From positions 1,116,001-1,180,000 of the forward strand of contig NZ_CP018760.1 in the NCBI RefSeq assembly GCF_001913155.1: a stretch of DNA of 64,000 nt, read 5' to 3'. The notes below the pieces were generated by a model. The model was not told the DNA's origin and made no database searches. It worked only from the letters and a program-made list of their open reading frames with translations. Shown here piece by piece: positions 55,778 to 64,000 of this stretch; the stretch's first letter is position 1; the number at the start of each line of letters is the position of its first letter. The stretch is from Maribacter hydrothermalis (lineage in GTDB: Bacteria; Bacteroidota; Bacteroidia; Flavobacteriales; Flavobacteriaceae). Both the position numbers and the translations under genes were made by a program.

Positions 55778-57097
55778 ATGCCTAATTTTAAGGAATTAGT
55801 TACCTTTGAATACGAAAATGAATACGAAAGCGCATACGATTTGTCTGTAAAGAGAAACTTCTCCATCCCAAAAATATATTCTGCGAACGGCGATTTAAAA
55901 CAACGCTGGTATGTCTATTTTTCTTTTCGTGACCCTAAAAGTGGAAAATTGAAGCGGCAGACTCCTTTCTACGGAGGTGCAAATAAATATAAGAACAAGG
56001 AAGATAGAATGTCCGTATTGGTCATATATAGAAAAGTTTTATTGAGACTACTTAATAAAGGTTATAATCCATATTCCGATAATCTAGAGCTACACCAGTG
56101 TTTAACATCTAAAAACACTGTAGCCAATAATTTAAATTTACCAGATAAGCATTTACCGAAATCCAAACCCATATCGGAGAAACCAAAAATGACGGTTCAA
56201 GAGGGATTTAATTTTGGAATCAAGCTTAAAGAAAAATTGGTTAGCTCTAGTACTAAAAGAGATTATGAAAGTAAAATAAAGAATTTTTTAGGTTGGCTTT
56301 CAATTAATCATCCTGAAATTAAGTTCATATCTCAACTAAATAAGAAACTTGTCGTAGAATTCTTAAATGATGTTTTGGACAGAAATAGCGCACGAACAAG
56401 AAATAATTACAAAACCGACCTCAGTAGTATTATATAAGTACTTGTCGATAATGAAATCATAGAACAAAATTTCGTAAAGAAAATACCTAAATTAAAATCT
56501 ACACCAGAACGTAATAAAACATATTCCCAACAAATACAAGAAGATATTTTTGAATATTTAGAAGTTAAAGACTCAATTCTATTACTCTATATAAAATTTA
56601 TCTCTTATAATTTTTTACGCCCAATTGAAGTCTGCCGACTTAAAGTGAAAGATATTGATATAACAAATAGACGCATACAATTTAAAGCAAAGAACAGCCC
56701 ATTAAAAACCAAAATAATACCAGAGTTATTATGGAACGATTTGCCAGACCTCACAAAATTGGATAAAGAAGCTGTTTTATTCACACCTAACAAAGTAGGT
56801 GGAACATGGAATACCTTGGTAGAAAACAGGCGGGACTATTTTAGTAAACGCTTTAGAAAAATTGTTAAGGAACATTTCAAATTAGGAATAGACTATGGTC
56901 TTTATAGCTTTAGACACACTTACATTACAAAAGTTTATAGAGCCCTGATGAAAGACTCTTCCCCTTTTGAGGCTAAAAGTAAACTGATGTTGATCACAGG
57001 CCATTCTTCCATGACCGCCTTAGAAAAATATTTAAGGGATATAGATGCAGAACTACCTGAAGATTACTCAACAATGTTAAAAAATGTACATGAATAA
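55778..57097 (+). pseudogene. tRNA-adjacent tyrosine integrase with in-frame nonsense codon
   Basis: One frame from 55778 to 57097 is interrupted only by a TAA at codon 220 (56435-56437); there is no shift. The N-terminus has an arm-binding-like region (LKQRWYVYFSFRDPKSGKLK), then a SAM-like core-binding domain (SSSTKRDYESKIKNFLGWL). The catalytic part lies after the stop: Arg in FLRPIEVCRL, HxxR-type YSFRHTYITK, GHSS and the Tyr nucleophile in LEKYLRDID. The full length would be 439 residues. It lies 54 bp after tRNA-fMet in the usual island position. The stop separates DNA-binding and catalytic halves, so the enzyme should be dead unless the codon is misread. Confidence 0.88.
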
Positions 57098-57833
57098 TAT
57101 GCCTTTGGAAATATTGTACAAGAACCTGATTTCAAGGCTGTGGGAAGAACTATTATTTTATATCCCTGACAATGAAATAACAAACGAATTTTTAGAAAAC
57201 CATAAAGAAATAGAATTTGAAAAATTTCGTGATAAGATAATAATTATAGATTATTATAAGGGACCAACACTTTACGAATTAGGTAGAAATAATAACCAGA
57301 TAATACTTAAAAGTAACACACTAAAAAAAAGTATACGTCAATTATTAAATGCAAAAGCAAATTCCAATGAACAGGAATTTAATTATATACTAGAATTATA
57401 TTATGAACAGGTTGAGTGCATATATTTTATTACAAATTGGCTAAATGTAAATATAACCCAAGTACTACCACAAGAGGAAAGTATTCTAGGTTTATTTAAA
57501 CTGCAATATAATTTCCACAAGTCACATTTTGAAACTATTCTAAAACAGTTTTATCCCGATATGCAATCTTTGCCGAAGGGTAATTTTAATATTGGAAAAT
57601 CATTAGAGTCATCTTTACCTCAAATCACCAAACTATTTAATACTGAGAACAAACAAAAGATTATACCTGAAGCTTCAAATTTACAAGAAGATAGGCAGGA
57701 AAACTTACCCACTTCTATTAATAAGAAAGAACGGAAGAGGAATATTAAAAAACCCCCTATTATTTCAGATACAGAAGCAGAAACAATTTTATTAAAGCGG
57801 ATTTTTAATATTGATTTAGAAACACATAAATAA
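57084..57833 (+). CDS. unknown island protein
   Basis: 249 residues from the ATG at 57084, which overlaps the integrase end by 14 bp; ATGs at 57090 and 57099 are also possible, the last lying just after the integrase stop. The sequence is helical and AT-coded (SRLWEELLFYIPDNEITNEF, ELYYEQVECIYFITNWLNVN), with a basic C-terminal stretch (KKERKRNIKKPP) that might bind nucleic acid, and ends ETILLKRIFNIDLETHK. No family recognised. The position directly behind the integrase suggests it belongs to the same mobile unit. Confidence 0.7.
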   Translation: MYMNNMPLEILYKNLISRLWEELLFYIPDNEITNEFLENHKEIEFEKFRDKIIIIDYYKGPTLYELGRNNNQIILKSNTLKKSIRQLLNAKANSNEQEFNYILELYYEQVECIYFITNWLNVNITQVLPQEESILGLFKLQYNFHKSHFETILKQFYPDMQSLPKGNFNIGKSLESSLPQITKLFNTENKQKIIPEASNLQEDRQENLPTSINKKERKRNIKKPPIISDTEAETILLKRIFNIDLETHK

Positions 57834-57870
57834 ATTATACGTAAATTAAACGTTTAATTTACGTATAATT
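57833..57870. promoter_or_regulatory. perfect 38-bp palindrome next to a start codon
   Basis: Two 19-nt arms (left arm AATTATACGTAAATTAAAC) with no loop occupy all the space between the previous stop and the ATG at 57871. It holds the inverted pair TTATACG / CGTATAA, also found at 58745-58767. It may be an operator, a hairpin hiding the start, or a terminator. Confidence 0.8.
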
Positions 57871-58293
57871 ATGATTAAAACTGAAATCTGTAAGTATTGT
57901 GGTGATGACTACGTCCCTAAAAGAAGAGGAGCACAAAAGTTTTGTAGCAACTCTTGCCGAAGTTTGAACTGGAAAAACAAACAACTGATTAAAGGATTGA
58001 AGGTGCCAGCTTTAAACTCTATCGATGAGAAACCTGTTTTAGCAGAAAACCCAAGTTTACAAGAAAAAATGTCTTTAGCGGGAATTGGAAATGCTGCCGC
58101 AGGAGCTGCTATTGCAGAAATAGCAAAAAACATTATTACTCCAAATGCAAACAAACCTGCTACTAAAAAAGATATTGATGACTTAAAGGCTTTTTTTAAA
58201 GCTCGTTATTATATAGTCAAAAATATGAATAGGGATATTCACGGGAGATCTGCATATTATGATATTCTTTCAGGAAATATAATTTATAAATAG
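57871..58293 (+). CDS. zinc-ribbon-like unknown protein A
   Basis: 140 residues. The N-terminus has a treble-clef-like zinc site, CKYCGDDYVPKRRGAQKFC followed by SNSC, with C-x2-C and C-x3-C spacing. A middle hydrophobic Ala/Gly-rich stretch (AGIGNAAAGAAIAEIAK) and a C-terminal region (KKDIDDLKAFFKARYYIVKN) follow. No known family name. It starts directly after the 38-bp palindrome. The zinc site resembles that of the divergent gene at 58325-58723. Confidence 0.75.
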   Translation: MIKTEICKYCGDDYVPKRRGAQKFCSNSCRSLNWKNKQLIKGLKVPALNSIDEKPVLAENPSLQEKMSLAGIGNAAAGAAIAEIAKNIITPNANKPATKKDIDDLKAFFKARYYIVKNMNRDIHGRSAYYDILSGNIIYK

Positions 58294-58324
58294 TTATTTT
58301 TTAAACAACCAAAAACCTAACAGT

Positions 58325-58723
58325 TCAGTTTGTAAATTTTGAATTCTTAGCCATATAATCTTGCCATAAGATTAGAACATATTTATCCTTTCCATTTTCT
58401 TTTTTAGTTAAAAAGCCATACTCATAAATAAAAAAATAAACTTGTCCATTTTGATTTTTCCAATAATGTGTAATGAAGTTTGGGTTAAATCCTAATTCTA
58501 ACAATACATTACTTCTAATTGTAACCTTGCCTCCTTTATTATATTCCTTAAGTAACTTACGGTTCAATTTCAGTTGATTATCTACTTTGTTATAAAAGCG
58601 CTCAGGATTATACTTTTCAATTTGGTATTGGTAAGCACTTTTACATTGAGGGTCGCAAAATTTCTTATCCGTCCTACCTCTTAATTCTTTACTACAATGA
58701 CAACATTCCTTATATATTCTCAT
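58325..58723 (-). CDS. zinc-ribbon-like unknown protein B
   Basis: 132 residues on the minus strand. The N-terminus has CCHCSKELRGRTDKKFCDPQ followed by C, the same CxxC...KFCxxxC treble-clef pattern as protein A, then a basic helical region (NKVDNQLKLNRKLLKEYNKG) and a strand-rich tail. I recall such genes near integrases in Flavobacteriaceae, but the function is unknown. The promoter region is shared with the divergent recombinase at 58813 and contains a TTATACG/CGTATAA pair. Confidence 0.75.
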   Translation of the reverse strand: MRIYKECCHCSKELRGRTDKKFCDPQCKSAYQYQIEKYNPERFYNKVDNQLKLNRKLLKEYNKGGKVTIRSNVLLELGFNPNFITHYWKNQNGQVYFFIYEYGFLTKKENGKDKYVLILWQDYMAKNSKFTN

Positions 58724-58744
58724 AAAACTAAATTTAAAAGTATA

Positions 58745-58767
58745 TTATACGTATCCTATTCGTATAA
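58745..58767. promoter_or_regulatory. TTATACG/CGTATAA inverted repeat in the divergent promoter region
   Basis: TTATACG (58745-58751) and CGTATAA (58761-58767) are spaced by 9 nt. The same pair, spaced by 20 nt, lies in the palindrome at 57833-57870; the spacing differs by 11 nt, about one helical turn. A common DNA-binding regulator is suggested. Confidence 0.6.
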
Positions 58768-58812
58768 GGTACGATTAAATCAATTGAATCAATTAGATTG
58801 CTAGAAAAAGCC

Positions 58813-59943
58813 ATGGAAAAAGGCAGAAGCGTTACATTAAAGCATCTTCTAATTAAGGAAAAACGTTACATAGGTTTACAATTCAACACAGATAAAATTA
58901 TTCATGCGCTTGTTAAGCAGTTACCAGATGTTAAATGGAGTAATAGCTTTAACATGGCTTACATTTTGAACACCAAACAAAATCTTAATGAAATATTCAA
59001 AATATTCAATGGTGTTGTTTGGGTTAATTGTAACCAATTTTTTGACAGAAACGTAGCCAAAGAACATAACGAGACAATCGATATTACCTGGTTTAGAAAA
59101 AGGGAGCTTCCAGCAACGTATCGCGTTTGTCCTTTAAGTTATTTAGATAAGTTAGAATTAAGGAAATATGCCAATAACACAGTAAAAACATATGTAAATT
59201 CTTTTGAAACATTCATAAATTACTACAACACTAAAGATTTAATATCTATTAATGAAAGTGATGTTAGAGGTTATATTTTAAAACTAATTCAAGAGGACAA
59301 ATCCAATGCCTATATCAATACCGCTATCAATAGTATAAAATTTTATTATGAATCGGTTCTAGGTATGCCCAATAGGTTTTATGAAATAGAAAGACCTAGA
59401 AAACAAAAGAAATTACCCAAAGTTCTTTCCAAAGATGATGTTCTCAGCATCATTGCCAACACTAATAACTTAAAACACAAATGTATTATTAGTCTTCTAT
59501 ATTCCTCTGGAATAAGAAGAAATGAATTGGTAAATTTAAAAATCAGTGATATAGATAGTAAAAGGATGTTGATACGGATTGAATCTGCAAAAGGTAATAA
59601 AGACCGTTATACTTTGCTATCACATTCTTTATTGAAAGATTTACGAGAATATTATAAACAATATAAACCAGAAAAATACCTTGTTGAAGGTTTATATGGC
59701 AAGCAATATTCAGGTCAAAGTATTGGAAAAGTTGTACTTAATGCAGCTATAAAATCAGGTATTATAATTCCTGTAACTCCACATATGTTAAGACATAGTT
59801 TTGCTACCCATCTATTAGAAGCAGGTGTAGATTTAAGACAAATTCAGGTTTTATTGGGTCATAGTTCTAGCAAGACAACTGAAATTTATACACATGTTGC
59901 CACAACAACTTTCAAAAAAATAAAAAATCCTCTTGACTCTTAG
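58813..59943 (+). CDS. tyrosine recombinase of an integron-like element
   Basis: The ATG at 58813 (MEKGRSVTLKHLLIKEKRYI) is chosen over a TTG at 58798; 376 residues. An N-terminal ~100-residue domain (GLQFNTDKIIHALVKQLPDV, KWSNSFNMAYILN) is extra to Xer proteins. A SAM-like core-binding domain follows (LELRKYANNTVKTYVNSFET), then the catalytic domain with Arg in SSGIRRNELVNLKISDID, Lys in SAKGNKDRYTLL, HxxR in TPHMLRHSFATHLLEAG, LLGHSSSKTTEIYTHV with the Tyr nucleophile, and the tail KIKNPLDS. The helix insertion that defines integron integrase IntI before the HxxR box is absent. It reads toward the cassette-like region, which starts 46 bp later. Confidence 0.92.
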   Translation: MEKGRSVTLKHLLIKEKRYIGLQFNTDKIIHALVKQLPDVKWSNSFNMAYILNTKQNLNEIFKIFNGVVWVNCNQFFDRNVAKEHNETIDITWFRKRELPATYRVCPLSYLDKLELRKYANNTVKTYVNSFETFINYYNTKDLISINESDVRGYILKLIQEDKSNAYINTAINSIKFYYESVLGMPNRFYEIERPRKQKKLPKVLSKDDVLSIIANTNNLKHKCIISLLYSSGIRRNELVNLKISDIDSKRMLIRIESAKGNKDRYTLLSHSLLKDLREYYKQYKPEKYLVEGLYGKQYSGQSIGKVVLNAAIKSGIIIPVTPHMLRHSFATHLLEAGVDLRQIQVLLGHSSSKTTEIYTHVATTTFKKIKNPLDS

Positions 59944-59957
59944 AAATTTATAAAAGA

Positions 59958-59995
59958 TATATATAACATTAATGTTATATATACTATTGTTAGCA
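59958..59995 (+). other. attI-like site: palindrome plus GTTAGCA core
   Basis: A perfect 26-bp palindrome (arms TATATATAACATT) at 59958-59983 is followed by GTTAGCA at 59989-59995, the first core-like heptamer after the recombinase stop. The position, just beside the recombinase and at the head of the cassette-like stretch, is that of an attI. GTTAGCA deviates from the IntI core GTTRRRY at one position. Confidence 0.5.
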
Positions 59996-60291
59996 AAAAT
60001 ATTCTAAGACGTCAAAATCTGAACTGGAATCGAGCTGGCTAAAAGAAATTTTTTTAAGGAAAATCTGTGATTTAAGTTCAAAACGCAATCGGAATTTATA
60101 AACGTTGCGCTGTTGGAATTGAAAAGTAAAACGCAAAGTTTGCGCAGTCAGAATGGAAAAACTAAACGAGCCAAACGTGCAAAAGATTTTACGAATATTA
60201 TGGAATCGTAATGGAAAAAAGAATTTTAAAAGCTGAACGCAATTAGTCTTGCGAAACGTAATCTGGGTATAAAAAAAATACTTTTGCTAAC
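59989..60291 (+). other. non-coding cassette-like unit
   Basis: About 300 bp with no convincing ORF, bounded by GTTAGCA and its complement TGCTAAC (60285-60291). The match extends to about 15 nt with one mismatch (GTTAGCAAAAATATT against GTTAGCAAAAGTATT). Inside are repeated fragments such as AAACGCAA, GTTGCGC/GCGCA and GGAATCG. It resembles an ORF-less integron cassette or a short inverted-repeat element. Confidence 0.5.
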
Positions 60292-60334
60292 AACGGTAAC
60301 CGTTGCACAAGCTTAAATTCTGAATAAAATCAAC

Positions 60335-60365
60335 ATAATAAAGCCTCTTTAAGAGGTTTTATTAT
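60335..60365. terminator. terminator at the end of the IS transposase
   Basis: A 15-bp stem (ATAATAAAGCCTCTT with its complement, one G-T pair) and a one-base loop lie 14 bp beyond the transposase stop, inside the IS. Confidence 0.8.
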
Positions 60366-60378
60366 TACCGGTTCAGTA

Positions 60379-61941
60379 TTAGAATGTCACTTTTTGATGC
60401 CTTAGGAATACTGAAAACATATCTTGGACAGTACTTTTTATAAAGACCTTAAAAGCAAGCTTTGCTAGCCCACTATTTGAACGTTTCAGTTCAAATTTCA
60501 GGTACTTCTTAAGGTTATAGGCGATTGCGGAGAGGTGCATCACCTTGTTGGCCTGTTCCAGACCTATCGTATTTATCTTGCGCATGCCCATGAACTGGGT
60601 GAGGGTACCGAAAACGGGTTCTACGGTGCTTTGTCGTTTACCCTTCATATACCTGCCCTGTGGGCTCTCGACCCTTGCGATGTTCCGTTCGTATTCCGCC
60701 CGATAATACGTGACCGAGAACTGTTTCTCGTTGACCTTTCCAAGGCAGCTTTCCATGATCGAGCAGCCCTTGCAGATCTTGCTCGACGCGCGGTACGCCT
60801 TCTTTTTGGTCTTGGTCCGGCTGTCAAGGAACACTTTTTTGAAAGGGATCACCTTGCCCTGTGGGCATAGATAATTGTCGTGTTCCCTGATGTACGTAAA
60901 CCCATCGGGACCACCTTTATAGGTGCCATGCGGTGGAATGAAACTTTTTAGCCCTTGGTTTTCCAGAAATGCATAGTTCTCCCCGCTACTATACCCCGTA
61001 TCGGCCACGCAGTTTTCAAATACCAGACCTTGTTGCCATAATCTTCTTTGCAAGCGTTGTACGATATCCTGTAATTGCTGGTTATCCTTTCCATCTGCAT
61101 GGTACGCCCTGATGTCGGTTATAACATGATGCGCCGTGTCAACACTAAGTTGAGAAAGATAGTTCAGCTTTCTGGCCTTGCCGGGTTTCACACTTATCCT
61201 GGCATCGGGGTCCGTTGGGCTATAATGTGTTTTGTTACTGGTGTACTTCGCACCTTTATTACCTGCACCGGGTCTTTGATCCTGATCCTTCGCCCACTTC
61301 TTGTTACGGCTCTTTATCGCATTCAGCTCCTTTCCACTTGCGGTAATACTACGATCGCCCTTATCCGCTTTATTATCCTTGGACTTACGGTGTGGCACTT
61401 CCCTGTCCATGGCGCTGATCGCCCGTATCCGCACCAAGTGCTCCTTTAGTTCTTCCTCGGGCACTTTCAGTTCCAAGGTATCCATACTCGCGTTCGCCTT
61501 TACCGGTGCCGAATCTATCGCTTGGGTATGACCACTTACCATTCCCTTTTCTATACACAACTGTAAAATATTCGTGAACACTTCCTCGAAAACGGACTCT
61601 GGAAACAGTTGGCGTGTACGGCTTATGGTACTGTGCCATGGAAGTTCCTCATCAATGTCATAGCCTATGAAATAAAGAATGTCCAAGCGCATCGAACAAT
61701 GCGCAATCAGTTTACGGTCGCTGATAAGGTTCTCCAGATAACCCACCAGACAAAGCTTGAAGAACACCACGGGGTCTATGCTCTTTTGACCGCTCTCCCC
61801 ATAATAGGGCCGAGTCAACTTATAGAGGAAACCAAGATCAAGGGCGGATCCCAAACGCCTGTAAAAATTGTTCTTCGGTATACGTTCACTAAGTTGGAAA
61901 CTAGCGAAAAGCTTCTCCTGGTACTCCTTTTTTCCCTGCAT
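60379..61941 (-). CDS. IS1182-family DDE transposase
   Basis: Start taken at 61941 (MQGKKEYQEKLFASFQLSER); an upstream ATG at 61974 lies close to the IS end. 520 residues. An N-terminal DUF772-like domain (NNFYRRLGSALDLGFLYKLT, DPVVFFKLCLVGYLENLISD, LPWHSTISRTRQLFP) is followed by a DDE domain with Asp in TQAIDSAPVKANAS, Asp in CVADTGYSSGENYA and Glu in STVEPVFGTLTQFMGMRK. A Cys-rich strand in the middle (CKGCSIMESCLGK) may bind zinc. It appears intact. Codon use is more G+C-rich than neighbours. Confidence 0.88.
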   Translation of the reverse strand: MQGKKEYQEKLFASFQLSERIPKNNFYRRLGSALDLGFLYKLTRPYYGESGQKSIDPVVFFKLCLVGYLENLISDRKLIAHCSMRLDILYFIGYDIDEELPWHSTISRTRQLFPESVFEEVFTNILQLCIEKGMVSGHTQAIDSAPVKANASMDTLELKVPEEELKEHLVRIRAISAMDREVPHRKSKDNKADKGDRSITASGKELNAIKSRNKKWAKDQDQRPGAGNKGAKYTSNKTHYSPTDPDARISVKPGKARKLNYLSQLSVDTAHHVITDIRAYHADGKDNQQLQDIVQRLQRRLWQQGLVFENCVADTGYSSGENYAFLENQGLKSFIPPHGTYKGGPDGFTYIREHDNYLCPQGKVIPFKKVFLDSRTKTKKKAYRASSKICKGCSIMESCLGKVNEKQFSVTYYRAEYERNIARVESPQGRYMKGKRQSTVEPVFGTLTQFMGMRKINTIGLEQANKVMHLSAIAYNLKKYLKFELKRSNSGLAKLAFKVFIKSTVQDMFSVFLRHQKVTF

Positions 61942-62013
61942 ACAACAAGTTACGATCAAATGTCCGATCGGCAAGGATCAGAGCTCGATATTTTTTATAT
62001 CTTGTGCAACAGG

Positions 62014-62141
62014 CACACCGTGTATAATTCATTGCTGGTTATAGCCTACTTACGAAAGTCCTCGCGGACTTTCTATCTGTGATTTATTTGCTAAATTTAG
62101 TGCTTAAACACGCAACGAAATCATACACACAAACGTTAGGC
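62014..62141 (+). other. attC-like folded site ending in GTTAGGC
   Basis: An imperfect palindrome of ~128 nt. GTGTATAATTCATTGC (62020-62035) pairs with GCAACGAAATCATACAC (62112-62128) with a few unpaired bases. Further inside GGTTATAGCCTA pairs loosely with TAGTGCTTAAACA, and at the centre GAAAGTCC-TCGC-GGACTTTC (62054-62073) is a perfect hairpin. It ends in the core GTTAGGC (62135-62141). Its own 5' core has been cut off by the IS. Integron attC sites have this layout. Confidence 0.65.
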
Positions 62142-62158
62142 AAAATTAAAAAAACAGA

Positions 62159-63013
62159 ATGGAGATAACAAAGCTATCGGAATTTACAGACGCATTAGTT
62201 AAAATCAATAGCGAAGAAGATAAGACTTTGTTTTTTCGCGGACATTCAAATAAAAAGTATGATTTAAAACCTACCCTTTACCGTCCAGAAAGATTTTACT
62301 TGTCAGAGCATAAAATTTTTAGAGAGGCAATATTAAATTGTCCGCAAGATTTTAAAGATTGTAAAAGTGCAATTGAAATACTTGTTAAAATGCAACATTA
62401 CGGAGTTCCAACTCGAATATTGGATTTATCTCGAAATGCCTTGACCGCTCTGTTTTTTGCTTGCTATTCAAGGAAAGAAAAAGACGGAGAGGTTGTTATA
62501 TTAAATATTCCAAATGAAGAAATTTGTTATTATGATAGTGATAAAATTAGCGTTTTATCAAATTTAGCGAAACAAGATATGAACTTTGCGTTCGAGTATG
62601 ATGAAAATTTCGACTATGATAATCCTTTACACGTAAAATATGTAAATAAGGAATATTTCGGATATTTATTGCATTCGATTAAAGAGGAAAAACCTCATTT
62701 TCAAGATATAATAAATCCGAGACATTTAGAAAAAGTTATAGCAGTTCAAGTCAAATTAGATAATCCAAGAATTATTAAACAGAACGGTGCATTTTTAGTT
62801 TTTGGAGTAGAAAAGGAAAAGTCAAAATCTGCAAGTATTAAAGAAGATTGGGTTTTAAAACCAATGAATCAAAAAGTTATAATTCCTTCAAAATCTAAAG
62901 ATGATATATTGAAAGAGTTAGAAATTTTGGGAATTAATTATAGTACTTTGTTTCCTGAATTAGATGACCAAGCTGATTACATTAAGAATAAGTACGATAA
63001 TAACATTGCCTAA
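62159..63013 (+). CDS. FRG-domain protein, cassette-like gene
   Basis: 284 residues. The FRG domain is seen in LFFRGHSNKKYDLKPTLYRP (residues ~24-43) and VKMQHYGVPTRILDLSRNAL followed by TALFFACYS. FRG proteins are scattered in accessory DNA and are of unknown function. The gene begins 18 bp after GTTAGGC, and its stop TAA lies within GCCTAAC (63008-63014), so the ORF fills a cassette from core to core. No promoter of its own is obvious. AT-rich, unlike the IS before it. Confidence 0.88.
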   Translation: MEITKLSEFTDALVKINSEEDKTLFFRGHSNKKYDLKPTLYRPERFYLSEHKIFREAILNCPQDFKDCKSAIEILVKMQHYGVPTRILDLSRNALTALFFACYSRKEKDGEVVILNIPNEEICYYDSDKISVLSNLAKQDMNFAFEYDENFDYDNPLHVKYVNKEYFGYLLHSIKEEKPHFQDIINPRHLEKVIAVQVKLDNPRIIKQNGAFLVFGVEKEKSKSASIKEDWVLKPMNQKVIIPSKSKDDILKELEILGINYSTLFPELDDQADYIKNKYDNNIA

Positions 63014-63014
63014 C
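63008..63014 (+). other. 5' core of a second attC-like site
   Basis: GCCTAAC is the exact complement of GTTAGGC at 62135 and fits RYYYAAC. The matching 3' half is not seen before the IS110-type gene, so this site was probably truncated by the insertion. Confidence 0.5.
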
Positions 63015-63073
63015 AAAGAACTGAGGTAAAAAACAAACAAATTCTTCCTTAATCTGAGACAATATTATTCTAG

Positions 63074-63111
63074 GCTCATAGATTCAAAAAACAGATTCTT
63101 GAGCTTTTTTT
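63074..63111 (+). terminator. terminator-like hairpin
   Basis: GCTCA-T-AGA-T-TC pairs with GA-T-TCT-T-GAGC (two mismatches) and is followed by seven T. It would end a plus-strand transcript from the FRG gene; it may equally be part of the IS110 end. Confidence 0.55.
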
Positions 63112-63129
63112 ATTTCATTTTTCTGCTAT

Positions 63130-64000
63130 TTATCTAGGCAATACAGAAACGTAAGTTTCATCATATGGTCTGCCAGATTTTGCGATAGCAAAAGACTGCT
63201 TTAATAGTTTGTTGGCAACGGCTATCAGTGCCAATTTCTTGCTCTTACCCTTGTTCACGATTCGCTCATACACATCTCTGCATGCCTTGTTGTGTTTACA
63301 GGCATTGAAAGAACATAGAAACAATAGATTACGAAGCTTTCTATTGCCGACCTTACTTATTCGCGCTCGACCTCTTACACTGCTCCCAGACTCCCGTATC
63401 GTTGGGGTTATACCTACATAACTACAAAGCTGTGCTGCTGTTTCGAACTTTCTGAAACCGTCAATGACAACAATTAAGAACAATGCAGTCTTTTGTCCTA
63501 TTCCTGGTATTGACGTTAACAAGGTCAATTGCTCCTGTTGGTCCTCCTTTACCAATGATAGTATCTTTGACTCGATAGCTGCTACCTCTTTGTTCAGCTG
63601 CTTCTTGTTACGTATCAAGGAACGATAAACAAACTTTGACGGTATCCCCAAAACAGCTTCCCCATGTATCTTGTTCTTGGTTGCGGTACGTTGTTTTAAA
63701 TAAGTATCCAATAACCGGAACAACTGTAAACATTCGCTCTGGGTATCCGTCAAGGCATTGTAAACAGGAACCTCGTTGATAAGGGCATATTCACATATAG
63801 CCTTGGCATCGCTCTTGTCCGTTTTTACCTTGGCAAGTTTCATTTGTATAAATCGCTTTATCGATAAAGGATTTACAACGGATACCAGTACTCCATTTTT
63901 GTAAAGAAACTGTGCAAGCCTATAATGATAGTAACCGGTAGCTTCCATAACGACCAATGAACCTTTGGGCAATTCCTTAAGGTATTTCTTGAATCCCATT
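63130..64000 (-). CDS. IS110-family transposase, N-terminus outside the window
   Basis: The frame is open to the window edge; the Met at 63999 is probably internal because IS110 proteins have about 40 more residues before GFKKYLKELPKGSLVVMEAT. The DEDD domain retains Glu in VVMEATGYYH and the Asp pair in KVKTDKSDAKAICEYA. The C-terminal Transposase_20 part is complete (LTSIPGIGQKTALFLIVVID, FRKFETAAQLCSYVGITPTI, SKVGNRKLRNLLFLCSFNAC, with the Ser of the S-x-x-G block). IS110 elements recombine through a bridge RNA from their non-coding end; that end, upstream of the gene, is off the window. Confidence 0.92.
   Translation of the reverse strand, partial: MGFKKYLKELPKGSLVVMEATGYYHYRLAQFLYKNGVLVSVVNPLSIKRFIQMKLAKVKTDKSDAKAICEYALINEVPVYNALTDTQSECLQLFRLLDTYLKQRTATKNKIHGEAVLGIPSKFVYRSLIRNKKQLNKEVAAIESKILSLVKEDQQEQLTLLTSIPGIGQKTALFLIVVIDGFRKFETAAQLCSYVGITPTIRESGSSVRGRARISKVGNRKLRNLLFLCSFNACKHNKACRDVYERIVNKGKSKKLALIAVANKLLKQSFAIAKSGRPYDETYVSVLPR

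Follow-up and report, generated by a model that had tools for sequence, protein, structure and literature searches.

Can a platform that collects gene cassettes in the manner of an integron be run by a tyrosine recombinase other than IntI? The question is raised by a stretch of 64,000 nucleotides from Maribacter hydrothermalis, a member of the Bacteroidota (contig NZ_CP018760.1 of assembly GCF_001913155.1, positions 1,116,001 to 1,180,000; hereafter the window), in which an original prediction, made from the letters alone, placed an integron-like system with a non-IntI recombinase and attC-like cassettes. Integron surveys begin from IntI. In the accessible text of the IntegronFinder 2.0 paper (PMC9024848), Bacteroidetes appear with In0 elements found earlier and with one complete integron, that of Salinibacter ruber, besides Chlorobi and Ignavibacteriae, and the accessible text of a review counts Bacteroidota among the integron-bearing phyla (PMC8618304). 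Our literature search, judged by titles and abstract openings and covering few subscription papers and no preprints, returned no non-IntI cassette system in Bacteroidota. The prediction stands, and the system proves more extensive than was first noticed. The window holds the attI side of a cassette array that follows a Xer-like recombinase gene, and it very probably represents that end of an integron-like platform run by this enzyme through the mechanism proposed below. The anatomy of the locus, the structure of its sites with their compensatory changes, the strand asymmetry, the GTT boundaries of moved cassettes and the linkage to the recombinase are directly supported. The elements are arranged as follows.

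58798 to 59943, plus strand: tyrosine recombinase of 381 amino acids (start at ATG 58813 or TTG 58798), with a HARP-like N-terminus, a SAM-like core-binding domain and a catalytic domain without the IntI insertion
59958 to 59983: attI-like palindrome of 26 bp, followed by 5 bp and then by the crossover triplet GTT at 59989
59989 to 60291, plus strand: body of cassette 1, with matching start and end cores
60285 to 60295, plus strand: left core of attC1 and beginning of its left arm (TGCTAACAACG)
60296 to 62014 (approximate), minus strand: IS1182-family insertion sequence (IS) inside attC1; transposase at 60379-61974 (minus strand; NF033551, 344 bits)
62015 to 62141, plus strand: remainder of attC1, up to the crossover GTTAGGC at 62135, recognized by covariance model R1
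62135 to 63014, plus strand: body of cassette 2, with matching cores and an open reading frame (ORF) at 62159-63013
63008 to 63017, plus strand: left core of attC2; its right arm lies past the IS110-family element, outside the window (locus L009, 8312-8493)
63018 to 64000, continuing past the window end, minus strand: IS110-family element inside attC2; transposase ORF at 63130-63999 (NF033542, 203.7 bits)

The predicted core pairs, GTTAGCA at 59989 with TGCTAAC at 60285 and GTTAGGC at 62135 with GCCTAAC at 63008, were found where they had been placed, the first beginning 45 bp past the recombinase stop codon. Outward from the crossover, the agreement extends further than first claimed: over 10 bases, one mismatch and 4 more in cassette 1, and over 9 bases, two mismatches and 3 more in cassette 2. 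As evidence on their own, however, the two pairs carry no weight: between GTTR and YAAC motifs 200-1000 nt apart, runs of at least 7 bases occur 34 times in the window versus a mean of 44.5 in 10 shuffles, and runs of at least 10 occur once versus 1.4 times. Because the pairs alone are at chance level, their significance was taken from relatives of the locus. The imperfect palindrome at 62014-62141, taken earlier for an attC, is real, but it is only the right part of attC1, whose left core stands at 60285 beyond the IS1182-family element; the ends of that element were inferred from its flanks, ACAACG and ACACCG. The stop codon of the cassette 2 gene lies inside the core at 63008-63014, as had been noticed. 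This gene encodes an FRG-domain protein (Pfam FRG, 1e-17) with a match to PDC-S15, a candidate defence family in PADLOC (8.6e-101). Cassette 1 has no ORF of 60 amino acids in the ORF list, and a third gene follows the right arm of attC2, beyond the window end.

Which recombinase stands at the head of this array? The protein matches Pfam Phage_integrase at 9.9e-40 and scores 221.6 bits with NF040815 (recomb_XerA_Arch), above the curated cut-off of 220. It fails the IntI criterion (TIGR02249, 200.6 bits against a cut-off of 265) and misses the curated cut-offs of XerC (184.2 versus 335.15) and XerD (189.7 versus 329.6). The catalytic set said to be complete is indeed so, with R240, K265, H329, R332, H355 and Y364 invariant in alignment A5. 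The IntI-specific insertion (2A3V residues ~200-247) has no counterpart, in agreement with the prediction, and the distance from the KGxKxR motif to box II is 64-72 amino acids in 13 sister-type loci versus 87-106 in IntI loci. The structure model (mean predicted local distance difference test score, pLDDT, 88.1) has 5hxy and 4a8e, then 2a3v, as its nearest solved folds by Foldseek. A tree was built from 70 of 80 loci found by protein alone, which are the best 80 of at least 591, and from 35 of the 38 loci examined earlier, with rows containing internal stops or shorter than 240 amino acids excluded. The 17 IntI rows (15 distinct) form a single clade with support of 100/99, apart from the window recombinase. 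The host genome (4.27 Mb) encodes this recombinase three more times, twice in full length (63%) and once truncated, and also has two separate Xer-like genes (L005 and L006) far from it in the tree; relatives at E<=1e-60 occur in 31 of 60 genomes, the host included. At the N-terminus, the additional domain is similar to the DNA-annealing domain HARP, as suggested by a profile of 20 such domains that ranks the HARP domain of SMARCAL1 first (E 0.0013); the matched region of XPB bears the label 'damage-recognition domain'. With this N-domain, Foldseek gave no match at E<=0.001.

Are the attC-like sites a coherent family? They were sought with an inverted-repeat scanner that allows YAAC, since a TAAC requirement missed most sites. 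In 38 stretches around recombinase genes (454,596 bases), 89 sites with a score of at least 12 lay on the recombinase strand and 3 on the other, versus 4.7 per strand in shuffled sequences. Unit lengths are not spread but cluster near 130 and 194 nt, with 93 of 175 at 125-139 and 62 at 185-199. From 47 chosen sites of about 130 nt, an alignment of 43 was made on the top strand (A1) and then one of 34 on the bottom strand (A3), the sites left out being removed by hand as divergent or doubtful. The covariation score in A3 was 0.471, compared with 0.152 +/- 0.015 in 500 shuffles and 0.06-0.11 when the 3' partner was slid. The sites have the GTTR/YAAC cores, the unpaired spacer and the conserved bottom-strand stem of an integron attC. 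The covariance model R1, built from 34 sites of other loci with the window copy outside the training set, finds 62012-62140 on the bottom strand as its sole match in the window (90.9 bits; E 2.2e-18, R1 E-values being rough owing to a short calibration). In the host genome it gives 26 hits (E<=1.7e-5). Of these, 22 lie in one orientation at most 40 kb downstream of three recombinases, a limit set after the data had been seen, and 4 lie elsewhere, two of them adjoining IS1182 copies. The sites are therefore linked to the recombinase and not scattered at random.

Terms such as R and L box, unpaired central spacer (UCS) and extrahelical base (EHB) follow PMC2727003, the accessible text of which assigns the choice of strand to the extrahelical bases; these are read by the I2 helix, according to the accessible text of PMC4792948. 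In the sites studied here, three fixed positions carry a bottom-strand G.U pair in 34, 25 and 31 of the 34 sites, where the top strand has an A.C mismatch. Folded with a cassette's own cores joined, the bottom strand is more stable than the top strand in 94 of 100 cases, and this joined form exceeds the integrated form in stability in 95 of 100, with a mean z of -5.7 in the first 40. The platform thus probably recombines a folded bottom strand. The same cassettes might instead be exchanged as double strands, two strands at a time in the Xer-like manner, with the palindrome representing two inverted recombinase binding sites. A recombinase that lacks the I2 helix and stands near XerA, the paucity of extrahelical bases and the palindromic nature of the attI-like site itself would all suit such a route. 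However, the stem sequence is free to vary while its pairing stays, the variable cores of one circle match although a double-stranded route has no need of this, and the fixed wobbles favour the bottom strand with the regularity just given. On balance, we consider double-stranded exchange unlikely, if deserving of attention, and prefer the folded single strand.

Where do cassettes begin and end? Measured from the last aligned recombinase residue, the first matched GTT is 47-53 bp downstream in 12 sister loci and 85 and 127 bp downstream in two others. A palindrome at the attI-like position passes an automatic criterion in 13 of 38 loci, the sequences being quite different. Loci L009 and L045, from two species, are 88.7% identical over 3177 bp, the alignment stopping 6 bp short of the GTT, on which an identical stretch of 34 bp ends; beyond the GTT their cassettes differ, and likeness is limited to pieces of attC arms. 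By its anatomy, then, an attI-like site stands next to the recombinase, and it is predicted to be the point at which cassettes enter. Among 175 units, 140 consecutive pairs could be compared, and start and end of the same unit agree at positions 0-9 and 11-13 and almost never at position 10, a run of at least 8 bases being present in 100 pairs, so that the agreement seen in the window recurs elsewhere. At the variable positions 3-8, a start matches its own end in 79-86% of cases versus 31-55% for random pairs; agreement between random pairs from the same locus, or between both cores of an integrated site, is confined to the conserved bases. This matching of own ends is what is expected of a circular cassette that carries one site. 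Long core matches as such were considered as a unique feature of the system and rejected, as IntI loci share them. Position 10 alone differs, matching in 4 of the 140 pairs (3%), in 17% of the divergent type and in 53% of the 19 pairs from IntI loci.

The arrays contain 158 matched-core cassettes in 36 loci, three of them from the IntI locus L153. The cassettes are tandem and mostly have one gene in one orientation (139 plus, 11 minus and 8 without an ORF), and the single ORF spans a median of 92% of the cassette versus 23% in shuffles. Scanning covered 139 of the 150 ORFs and the window's own; left out were the three of L153, two near-duplicates, one 4.8-kb ORF and five from disturbed or doubtful places. 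Restriction enzymes and a candidate defence gene are among the cargo, along with many unknowns. A family of cassettes of about 400 nt, found at L046 (7529-7928), L048, L051, L055 and L057 with 68-81% identity between loci, could encode an RNA; its copy at L046 has no ORF of 40 amino acids.

Do whole cassettes move? Cassette order between strains was replaced by comparison between species, with one genome per species. Alignment rows covering a cassette numbered 47, counted in both directions and resting on 9 of the 158 cassettes, and 36 of them had at least 85% identity. Of these 36, the start falls between -30 and +3 of a GTT in 32, and the end falls close to the following GTT in 19 and within attC in 16 (35 together). 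The other 149 cassettes have no such relative in the loci compared, which indicates that the arrays turn over fast. For example, one cassette of L059 occurs twice, at attI and at a distance of 13.7 kb; the copies are 96.7% identical, and the bases that they share run from -3 to +3 exactly. L101 (Algibacter onchidii), whose recombinase belongs to a different clade, shares a cassette with L064 at 88.6%. Cassette 1 has a 98% copy in the host genome (L205, at ~3.606 Mb), accompanied by an IS1182 element and attI-like palindromes of its own; there was no recombinase within the few hundred bases read upstream, no wider search having been made. These observations also bear on the possibility that the sites are merely IS repeats, or an RNA-like family of the repetitive extragenic palindrome (REP) or terminator type, lying between genes by chance. 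The sites are palindromic, intergenic and targeted by insertion sequences, and the four stray hits in the host genome would fit such a family. Nonetheless, an Rfam scan of 57500-64000 at gathering thresholds gave no matches, the sites behind the recombinase have the same orientation, and whole cassettes move with GTT boundaries. The private matched cores of each cassette bring the repeat explanation close to refutation, and we give it almost no credence.

Does the linkage extend beyond the genomes in which it was noticed? At the best 80 loci found by protein alone, matched cassettes numbered 40 on the recombinase strand and 3 on the other, with none in one shuffle of each. All three opposite-strand cassettes came from L153, a true IntI locus (403.6 bits) with the classical divergent arrangement, which served as a positive control. 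In the window's type, the array lies downstream in the same direction, so the recombinase is oriented toward its cassettes as had been reported, unlike that of classical integrons; in L196, one of the IntI loci used for comparison, the array precedes the gene and has the same direction. Across the main tree, matched-end cassettes occur at 32 of 107 recombinase loci, two of these in one genome. The window clade has 34 rows, of which 22 have an array, 10 are too short and 2 were scored 'none', namely the IS-split window locus and L061, where attI and the first cassette agree at all 13 positions. R1 finds sites at E<=1e-5 in 104 of 198 genomes of the phylum. Among 16 chosen genomes of other phyla it finds none at that threshold, and in this sample the ascription to Bacteroidota holds; the 16 include the genome of L153 with its IntI array, and R1 therefore does not find every attC. 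For related proteins sampled from archaea and from other phyla, no accompanying array was detected.

Might these arrays have been built by IntI after all, as remnants resembling clusters of attC sites lacking an integrase (CALIN), with a lost or trans-acting IntI and the adjacent recombinase a bystander? IntI exceeds its cut-off in 57 of the 198 genomes, and of the 58 genomes listed as having an IntI match, 25 belong to the 104 with sites. However, the sites follow the non-IntI recombinase (both in 63 genomes, site only in 41, recombinase only in 7, neither in 87; Fisher p 7e-16) and not IntI (25, 79, 33 and 61, respectively; p 0.12), in tests that ignore the shared ancestry of genomes. In the window's class (49 genomes) the corresponding counts for site and recombinase are 31, 6, 2 and 10 (p 4.7e-5), and IntI passes its cut-off in a single genome, which has no site. 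None of the 19 genomes carrying the window recombinase or a relative has an IntI above the curated cut-off. Moreover, the attI palindrome and GTT boundary lie directly behind the non-IntI recombinase, and EHB-like bulges are few, unlike in IntI sites. A remnant of IntI activity is accordingly very improbable, and a platform run by the adjacent recombinase is preferred.

Under the mechanism that we propose, a cassette would be a probable circle with one gene and one attC-like site. On its bottom strand, the cassette's own cores would pair over 10 + 3 bases, followed by an asymmetric unpaired spacer and a ~16-bp stem in which G.T wobbles are fixed and extrahelical bases scarce. Beside its AAC, this folded strand would be cut by the Xer-like recombinase with its HARP-like domain and joined to the attI-like site that lies behind the recombinase gene. 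In this way new cassettes would be acquired beside attI in a single orientation, and attC x attC exchange would remove or relocate them. Catalysis by the window recombinase, the single-stranded route and a HARP-like domain that substitutes for the I2 helix of IntI are all predictions from comparative data. We lean toward regarding the system as a second integron class, independently evolved or ancestral and widespread in Bacteroidota, which would use folded single-stranded attC without I2 and G.T wobbles as the strand signal.

Several observations weigh against this picture. Cassette recombination is inferred, and both attC sites of the window are interrupted, attC1 by the IS1182 element and attC2 by the IS110 element. 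The palindrome scanner selects for pairing, and nine poorly aligning sites were removed by hand, between 43 and 34, before covariation was counted; the pairing level in A3 (91.0% of cells versus 72.9% in shuffles) is therefore biased upward, the compensatory changes being less affected. By a single scanner that penalises bulges in both kinds of site, single-base stem bulges number 0.20 per non-IntI site (any bulge in 30 of 159; 5 of 24 in the divergent type) versus 1.85 per site in five IntI loci, where every one of 13 sites has at least one and 22 of 24 bulges are on the 3' arm. In extrahelical bases, these stems differ from those of IntI integrons. Among the consecutive cassette pairs, 40 of 140 have no 8-base run, through sites missed or disrupted or for want of a match. 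Nine other Bacteroidota recombinases with at least 3 kb behind them (L071, L074, L075, L088, L092, L093, L098, L102 and L103) have no matched cassette. In addition, 41 of the 104 site-bearing genomes have no recombinase at E<=1e-60, 33 of these 41 also having no listed IntI match, and 7 of 70 genomes with the recombinase have no sites. As for the N-terminal domain, the window's own protein has no Pfam HARP match (PF07443), and recombinases of the divergent type seem too short to hold such a domain.

Two insertion sequences occupy the attC-like sites. All eight copies of the IS1182-family element in the host genome (L203-L210) have attC-like flanks and occupy one position, following the left core; ACANNG borders each copy on either side, and in four copies the two flanks differ. 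From these flanks, the element looks like a site-specific, attC-targeting one. For the IS110-family element (63018-64000 in the window; L009 7019-8311; L011, L048, L055 and L056), all six distinct copies of one end follow YAACAAA inside attC-like sites, and its guide RNA may be programmed for them. A second arrangement was seen at L183-L188, in other families of the phylum, where a short non-IntI recombinase accompanies divergent attC-like sites; some of these genomes also carry a separate IntI. Among mobile elements, none of 16 phage records matching the recombinase query covers 80% of it, and all 265 matching plasmid records are below 60% identity, with Persicobacter ranked highest (40.4% along the full query) and plasmid proteins of Acinetobacter at 51.9% identity over 60% of the query. 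Upstream of the array, the adjacent ORFs 55778-56437, with a phage-integrase SAM-like match (1.8e-05), and 56645-57097, which by reading resembles the remainder of a catalytic domain and has no Pfam match at 0.001, are perhaps a split integrase. A perfect 19-bp inverted repeat without a spacer lies between genes at 57833-57870, and the ORFs 57871-58293 (plus) and 58325-58723 (minus) show C-x-x-C..C motifs by eye, with no Pfam match.

Because integron surveys begin from IntI and sites occur in 104 of 198 genomes, a major reservoir of cassettes may have been missed. This suggests a second, largely overlooked route by which bacteria such as marine Bacteroidota collect and shuffle genes. How the I2 helix and the extrahelical bases could have arisen together is called a chicken-egg paradox in the accessible text of Escudero et al. 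(2016; PMC4792948). A system in which the helix is absent and extrahelical bases are rare, yet cassette capture apparently works, bears on that question and, if our reading is true, would represent the I2-free state that it seeks.

How, then, does the system compare with those already known? With IntI integrons of the class 1 and Vibrio superintegron types it shares an attI beside the recombinase, tandem one-gene cassettes, a GTT boundary, GTT/AAC cores of attC that match within a cassette, an unpaired central spacer and a bottom-strand hairpin. It differs in a recombinase that lacks the IntI insertion and stands elsewhere in the tree, in EHB-like bulges (13 of 13 IntI sites versus 30 of 159), in the near-constant mismatch at core position 10 and in an array that lies downstream in the same direction. 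The locus works like an integron, but by the IntI criterion it is not a member. XerA, with NF040815 labelled 'site-specific tyrosine recombinase/integron integrase', is alike by score and fold, to which the window protein adds its HARP-like N-terminal domain. Integration of CTXphi by XerCD likewise involves a Xer-like enzyme without I2, a folded single strand and an EHB-free stem (Escudero et al. 2016, PMC4792948, accessible text); there, however, a phage borrows host enzymes, whereas the window's system has a dedicated recombinase, an attI and arrays of gene cassettes. Finally, the IS1111-attC group consists of insertion sequences that target attC (Tetu and Holmes 2008; Post and Hall 2009, as cited in the accessible text of PMC11187229), and the window's IS110-family element likewise targets attC; here, in contrast, an IS1182-family element targets the sites too, and the target is of the non-IntI type.

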